In this document: positions 14,467-47,539 of the stretch, in pieces | How positions within the stretch are numbered: the stretch's first letter is position 1 | Layout: each line of letters opens with the position of its first letter | From: Bacteroidota bacterium | GTDB lineage: Bacteria; Bacteroidota; Bacteroidia; Bacteroidales; JAAUTT01 | Assembly (NCBI GenBank): GCA_021779665.1 | Contig: JAJYAG010000012.1 | Span: 1-64,000 of the forward strand | DNA length: 64,000 bases | Direction: 5' to 3' | Position numbers and translations under genes: made by a program | Notes under the pieces: generated by a model | The model's database searches: none | Told to the model about the DNA's origin: nothing | The model's input: only the letters and a program-made list of their open reading frames with translations

Positions 14467-14521
14467 GGAGACGATAGCTATTAGACCATGGTCGAAAGCC
14501 ATTACAGCTATGGACTATGGA

Positions 14522-14730
14522 GGCTCTGTTGAAGATTATTGTTGATACTAAATAAGATCCCCAATTGCGGCGATGTTAAAAGTATAGTTCTTTTTAGGAC
14601 GTTCTCACGCCGCAAAAAAATCATTCTTTATTAAACCCAGGGCGCCGCTTCGCTTTGCCCTGGGCTGAATTATCGAAGGCCTTCAGCCTAAAAACAATAT
14701 ATCAAATCTACATTCTGGTGCAACAAAGCC
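14522..14730 (+). repeat. 209-bp interspersed element, copy 1 (TIR GGCTCTGTTG … CAACAAAGCC)
   Basis: Terminal inverted repeats; internal stems TTGCGGCG/CGCCGCAA, CCCAGGGC/GCCCTGGG, GGCTGAA/TTCAGCC; homologous to 47331-47539. Confidence 0.8.
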
Positions 14731-14842
14731 TCAATAGTCGATGGTCCATAGTCGATAGTAATGCAGCTAAACTGCCTGAAAGATTATTAGGAGTGTATTT
14801 CACTATGGACCATGGACTAAAAGCTCTGGACTAAAACAGTTC

Positions 14843-47330: not shown

Positions 47331-47539
47331 GGCTCTGTTGTATATTATTGTTGATATTAAATAGGAACTACAATTGCGGCGATAATAAAATTTAACCTCT
47401 TTTGAGACATTTTCACGCCGCCAAAATTAATTCTTAATATAACCCGGGGCGCCGTTTCACTTTGCCCCGGGCTGAATTATCCAAGGCTTTCAGCCTTAAA
47501 ATCCATAAAATCAAATCTACATTTCTGTGCAACAAAGCC
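47331..47539 (+). repeat. 209-bp interspersed element, copy 2
   Basis: Same length, termini and internal stems as 14522-14730; stem variant CCCGGGGC/GCCCCGGG is compensatory. Confidence 0.8.

Follow-up and report, generated by a model that had tools for sequence, protein, structure and literature searches.

A new MITE family of a known kind, with a modular twist, in a Bacteroidota genome

What is the short structured element found at positions 14522-14730 of the window, the whole 64,000-nucleotide stretch of Bacteroidota DNA analyzed here, and by what means did it come to be there? The sequence-only reading had described a MITE or REP-like element in two copies of 209 bp, and had suggested a BLASTN copy count, a check for target duplications, a search for an insertion sequence with matching ends and RNAalifold on all copies. 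Its coordinates, termini and stems are all confirmed, as is its placing of both copies in tail-to-tail intergenic regions, for each sits between convergent genes. The element, here called MITE1, represents a new MITE family of a known kind, with a modular twist. Copy 1 is very probably a MITE that is moved in trans by a DDE transposase and that descends from a likely IS6-like parent, the interior of which would have been replaced. The features of the locus and of the second copy are as follows.

14508-14521, + strand: degenerate heptamer array CTATGGA CTATGGA, abutting the left end of copy 1
14522-14730, + strand: MITE1 copy 1, full length, 209 bp
14522-14546, + strand: left terminal inverted repeat of copy 1, GGCTCTGTTGAAGATTATTGTTGAT
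14567-14613, + strand: stem-loop 1, with a GCGGCG/CGCCGC stem, nearly invariant in 36 copies
14636-14690, + strand: two-hairpin block, CCCAGGGC/GCCCTGGG and then AAGGC/GCCT; RF01687 match of 25.8 bits (gathering score 37)
14706-14730, - strand: right terminal inverted repeat of copy 1, reverse complement GGCTTTGTTGCACCAGAATGTAGAT
14738-14758, - strand: degenerate heptamer array CTATCGA CTATGGA CCATCGA, beside the right end and in the opposite orientation
47331-47539, + strand: MITE1 copy 2, full length, 209 bp, 81% identical to copy 1

The anatomy and stem statistics of MITE1 are taken from an alignment of 36 copies. The terminal inverted repeats extend over ~25 bp (GGCTCTGTTGYA.. / GGCTATGTTGCA..), and the alignment-derived ends read GGCTCTGTTGTATATTATTGTTGAT on the left and GGCTATGTTGCACAAAAATGTAGAT on the right, with the two consensus ends identical at 18 of 25 positions. 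In the interior, stem-loop 1 is followed by a GC hairpin, CCCRGGGC/GCCCYGGG, and a small hairpin, AAGGC/GCCTT.

The host genome is represented by an incomplete assembly of 6.94 Mb in 305 contigs, with a completeness of 96.6%. Within it, the BLASTN count gives 43 places that match copy 1, at which the dispersed copies end at common, sharp boundaries, and a profile built from both window copies recovers 43 distinct copies from the fetched DNA of this genome. Their mean pairwise identity is 83% (at least 43 copies), and end-pattern matches expose further remnants of MITE1 and of a second element, MITE2. Genome-wide, the 38 copies that can be classified by gene context are found in convergent (15), co-directional (16) and divergent (7) positions. 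MITE1 was not found in the 98 relatives searched, four of the same genus among them; searches for its core motif in GTDB and viral contigs gave nothing, and plasmid and phage collections likewise yielded no copy of the element. MITE1 also occurs inside tandem repeats, which have a period of ~295 bp in L042 (C247:6043-6841) and ~438 bp in L038 (C89:22487-23677).

The flanks of these copies carry the mark of insertion. Over lengths from 2 to 12, the match between left and right flanks exceeds that of cross-paired flanks at 8 bp alone (z 8.5). As heptamer arrays alone could mimic such flank matching, a within-locus control was added, in which the flank match across the element is compared with neighboring units on the same side in 29 dispersed copies. 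A match of at least 7/8 is found across the element in 17 of the 29, and in 4 and 2 for the neighboring units. When the flanks of all 35 copies are set against adjacent units, the difference is borderline for the left-adjacent unit (Wilcoxon p 0.065) and clear for the right-adjacent one (p 0.0002). Perfect or 7/8 duplications are also present at the array-free loci L005, L007 and L012. Overall, an 8-bp duplication is recognizable in about half of the MITE1 copies, whereas about a third are without a recognizable direct duplication. The latter include both window copies, whose direct flank match is poor (4/8 for copy 1 and 5/8 for copy 2). The suggested check does find 8-bp duplications under controls, though they are unclear at the very copies that raised the question. 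The flanks of copy 1 instead show a 7/8 inverted match, an arrangement that recombination between copies or arrays could produce.

The target itself is WCYRTSGW. Among its left-hand copies, 33 of 35 have C at position 2 and 35 of 35 have G at position 7, so that its outer bases are symmetric. This symmetry accounts for the complementary 2-nt extensions beyond the inverted repeats that had been noticed earlier. They are indeed present in both window copies, but in only 13 of 35 intact copies, and their encoding by the element is not supported, as the outermost bases are complementary in 15 of 35, no better than chance between A and T; they are target bases. A paralogous empty site is found in contig C89, where a 112-bp tandem unit occurs both with and without MITE1. 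The empty unit corresponds to the filled unit without the element and about one base, not without eight, and is off by one heptamer; since one base rather than eight differs, the empty units are not the pre-insertion state that a simple 8-bp duplication would predict. Many copies, paired terminal repeats, the 8-bp duplication and, less clearly, these imperfect empty units uphold the earlier MITE assignment.

Insertions are mostly located inside degenerate heptamer arrays. For 29 of the 43 copies, an array of at least two units is found no more than 60 bp away, and array coverage amounts to 15.2% of bases up to 60 bp from copies versus 0.67% at more than 600 bp. Runs of three exact CYRTSGW units in a row number 126 in this genome, against 0 for the reversed pattern, and are rare in relatives. 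The window holds another degenerate CYRTSGW array at 14803-14816. Many arrays are found without an element, and perfect ones exist even in genomes where no ends were detected, so the arrays are at least partly independent of MITE1. As a preferred landing site, they provide a concrete, testable target rule. It is conceivable, although we regard it as unlikely, that the degenerate arrays are themselves footprints of a MITE1-type transposon. Insertion would duplicate WCYRTSGW, 8 bp that begin and end with W. If the element were then lost imprecisely, together with one base, two units with a common W would be left, forming a tandem repeat of 7 bp that is exactly in phase, and repeated cycles would build arrays that then attract more insertions. 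The C89 empty unit, which differs from the filled one by just the element and one base, fits this scheme; the arrays in end-less genomes, and the units within one site that often differ, speak against it. The arrays also bear on a further alternative, namely that recombination, and not transposition, has spread MITE1 and MITE2 passively inside larger array-bearing repeats, tandem or dispersed. This would be in keeping with the tandem copies in C89 and C247 and with the flanking units common to L019, L022 and L025, but beyond the arrays the flanks of most copies are unrelated and duplications are also found outside arrays, which leaves passive spread very improbable.

The end-pattern search of the host genome also uncovered MITE2, an element of ~334 bp. 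Its ends match those of MITE1 at 23 of 25 positions on the left and 23 of 25 on the right, whereas the interiors of the two elements are unrelated. The flanks of its best-preserved copy (L150) read TCTGAGGA and TCTGATGA. The MITE2 interior (query 68-294) also exists at no fewer than 12 loci without these ends, as a free-standing structured repeat of ~230 bp with a variable loop of ~80 bp (L155, L157-L159, L161-L164, L166-L168 and L170; alignment A2). Its neighbors there are unrelated genes, and no gene-associated role is apparent from them. The interior folds into a long stem with the variable loop, followed by a hairpin on the 3' side. Compensated changes are seen at 23 of its 53 pairs, and 97.8% of the cells are paired; 0 of 500 shuffles reach either value. 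CTTGAC/GTCAAG could, to judge by inspection of the sequence, add a pseudoknot. No convincing Rfam family was found for this interior. Its 3' motif appears in at least 99 stretches, mainly from Bacteroidota genomes. In GTDB contigs (L180-L259) the motif, CTTGAYYTTTKGGTMCYTTTGKRTCAAGMCAAARGKAC, which possibly forms an H-type pseudoknot, is widespread in Bacteroidota and present in a few other phyla, and in Cyclobacterium jeungdonense (L233) CTTGAYYTTTKGGTMCYTTTGKRTCAAGMCAAARGKAC lies within ~395-bp tandem repeats. The interior of MITE2 is thus a module with an existence of its own, and that of MITE1 is probably modular too. That one pair of ends encloses two structured interiors of unrelated sequence suggests that transposon shells in bacteria can acquire other dispersed structured repeats.

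Could MITE1 instead be a gene for a structured non-coding RNA, or a family of regulatory RNAs, that has become multicopy, with the terminal repeats acting as its closing stem? In folding against dinucleotide shuffles, the window copies give z values of -3.1 and -5.4 on the + strand, and a z of about -3 to -5 is what such an RNA might show. The stems are 97.5% conserved versus 80% for the remaining columns of the 36 copies, a level that 0 of 20000 random column sets reach, and the right half resembles Acido-Lenti-1, which is annotated as an sRNA in Rfam. From the conservation it follows that the stems are either constrained or homogenized. The earlier reading had pointed to a compensatory stem change between the window copies; this A-U to G-C change, in the CCCRGGG stem, does exist but does not generalize. 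RNAalifold retains 20 pairs among the 36 copies, and this pair is the single one of them that is compensated. Covariation therefore does not prove an RNA for MITE1. Moreover, the same ends enclose an unrelated interior, a fact that already disfavors the RNA interpretation, the flanks bear 8-bp duplications, and copies are found in all gene orientations. We consider an RNA origin improbable, and return to the transposon as the better description; the conserved stems, as DNA or RNA hairpins, may play a role in the persistence of MITE1.

The right half of the MITE1 interior resembles Rfam RF01687 (Acido-Lenti-1), with scores that stay under the gathering score. The alignment of copy 1 spans the whole model, with its two-hairpin layout and conserved linker, and sub-threshold matches occur at the same position in 9 of 20 further MITE1 loci; the best copy reaches 33.6 bits against a cut-off of 37, and a scan of the window at gathering scores yields no Rfam match. 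RF01687 itself is found in 38 of the 99 genomes of the order that were searched, with up to 54 reported copies in one, and since it often occurs in close direct or inverted pairs it appears to be REP-like in this order. The host genome contains 8 Y1_Tnp genes, several of which are flanked by repeats with the same two-hairpin layout as the MITE1 block. These resemblances bear out the earlier remark that the inner palindrome is REP-like, as a likeness. MITE1 itself was not found at the Y1 genes examined. Several of the host's Y1 genes carry the motif DHxH..WQ..YIxNQxEHH, as in subclass 1.2 (PMC6006769). Genes of the YIxNQxEHH type lie beside two-hairpin repeats at L044, L045 and L050, in L045 on both sides and inverted, and in other genomes the RF01687 loci L286 and L290 have such a gene within 1 kb. 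Through MITE1 and MITE2, Acido-Lenti-1, an orphan motif in Rfam, becomes connected with REP-like repeats of Bacteroidota.

It might accordingly be asked whether MITE1 is a REP composite of the REPIN or BIME kind, mobilized by a RAYT or Y1 enzyme, with terminal repeats of secondary importance. The Y1 genes with their flanking two-hairpin repeats and the abundance of RF01687-like repeats in the order are what such a composite would lead one to expect. IS200/IS605-type Y1 enzymes are not known to make a target duplication, whereas 8-bp duplications are seen here; MITE2 has the same ends without the two-hairpin block, and around the Y1 genes RF01687 scores weakly (one match, E 0.18). We give mobilization by Y1 enzymes hardly any credence.

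The 14-bp tips of MITE1 agree at 12 of 14 positions with the ends of IS6100 (GGCTCTGTTGCAAA), a member of the IS6 family. Members of this family have GG tips with a cTGTt motif and duplicate 8 bp of target, and MITEs 227 and 336 bp long are known from it (PMC7986276); MITE1 has the GG tips with the cTGTt motif as well as the 8-bp duplication. MITE1 works like an IS6-type MITE, and an IS6-like parent is likely but unproven. Another genome of the order (G347) harbors an IS6-type element with PF13610 (L132 1229-2010; 782 bp, ends GGTTCTGYCGCATTAA). The IS6 transposase (PF13610, IS240-type DDE) is absent from the host assembly, and membership of the IS6 family is for this reason not claimed. The suggested search for an insertion sequence with matching ends found none in the assembly, where the end-like matches inspected are MITE1, MITE2, remnants or chance, and a search for MITE1 ends with up to one mismatch in 392 further genomes from the order found no autonomous partner. 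Not every MITE has a surviving autonomous partner. Two 1-mismatch end matches elsewhere (L119 and L121) have no adjoining transposase gene. Four candidate autonomous copies were rejected (C156, C176, C286 and C158), two being in or beside ordinary coding sequence and two being MITE remnants, and an IS1595 parent was also set aside, DDE_Tnp_IS1595 (PF12762) being absent from the host genome.

The sequence-only reading had favored IS5/IS903-type ends, GGCTTTGTTG, and the right tip of copy 1 is indeed GGCTTTGTTG, a ten-base tip that presumably resembles the ends of IS5/IS903. IS903 makes 9-bp duplications. MITE1 duplicates 8 bp and shows no signal at 9, and its extended consensus, GGCTCTGTTGYA, agrees with IS6 ends in 12 of 14 positions. 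The IS5/IS903 assignment is thus less well supported, and such a derivation is distinctly unlikely. The wider MITE or REP-like interpretation proposed at the outset turns out to be mostly right, its covariation argument excepted.

MITE1 may then be pictured as a short, gene-less transposon derivative, whose two related ends would be recognized by a DDE transposase supplied in trans. The enzyme would cut its target with an 8-bp stagger at WCYRTSGW and join the GG..CC tips, and repair would duplicate the 8 bp of target. The parent was most likely IS6-family-like, and would now be lost or not assembled. Because the same ends also enclose MITE2, the interior of this parent has apparently been replaced at least twice by dispersed structured repeats, presumably through capture.

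Among known systems, the IS6/IS26-family MITEs (MITEBth2 and MITEHarch3; PMC7986276, PMC6807381) are similar in their GG tips with CTGTTG, 8-bp duplication, lack of genes and size range of about 200-340 bp. However, the ends of MITE1 are longer (~25 bp) and differ consistently between left and right, and it has a strong WCYRTSGW preference, a structured-repeat interior and no IS6 transposase in its assembly. Acido-Lenti-1 (RF01687) has the same GC-rich hairpin, a ~12-nt linker with a similar AUUUAU core and a second small hairpin with a CUUC-type loop, but MITE1 scores 23-34 bits against a cut-off of 37 and its block is embedded in a transposon-like element. The REP/BIME repeats of TnpA-REP and Y1 genes (PMC6006769) are likewise multicopy intergenic hairpins, and similar repeats are found at the host's own Y1 genes; REP/BIME are, in contrast, short palindromes without terminal inverted repeats or target duplications. 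IStrons, which combine a group I intron with an insertion sequence (PMC4227781), also consist of a transposon shell with structured cargo, whereas MITE1 is without ribozyme or transposase and gives no suggestion of self-splicing. Finally, BrickBuilt of Porphyromonas gingivalis (PMC4596501) is another Bacteroidota MITE tied to short tandem repeats; in BrickBuilt the minisatellite is found inside the MITE, whereas in MITE1 the degenerate heptamers lie outside, at the target.
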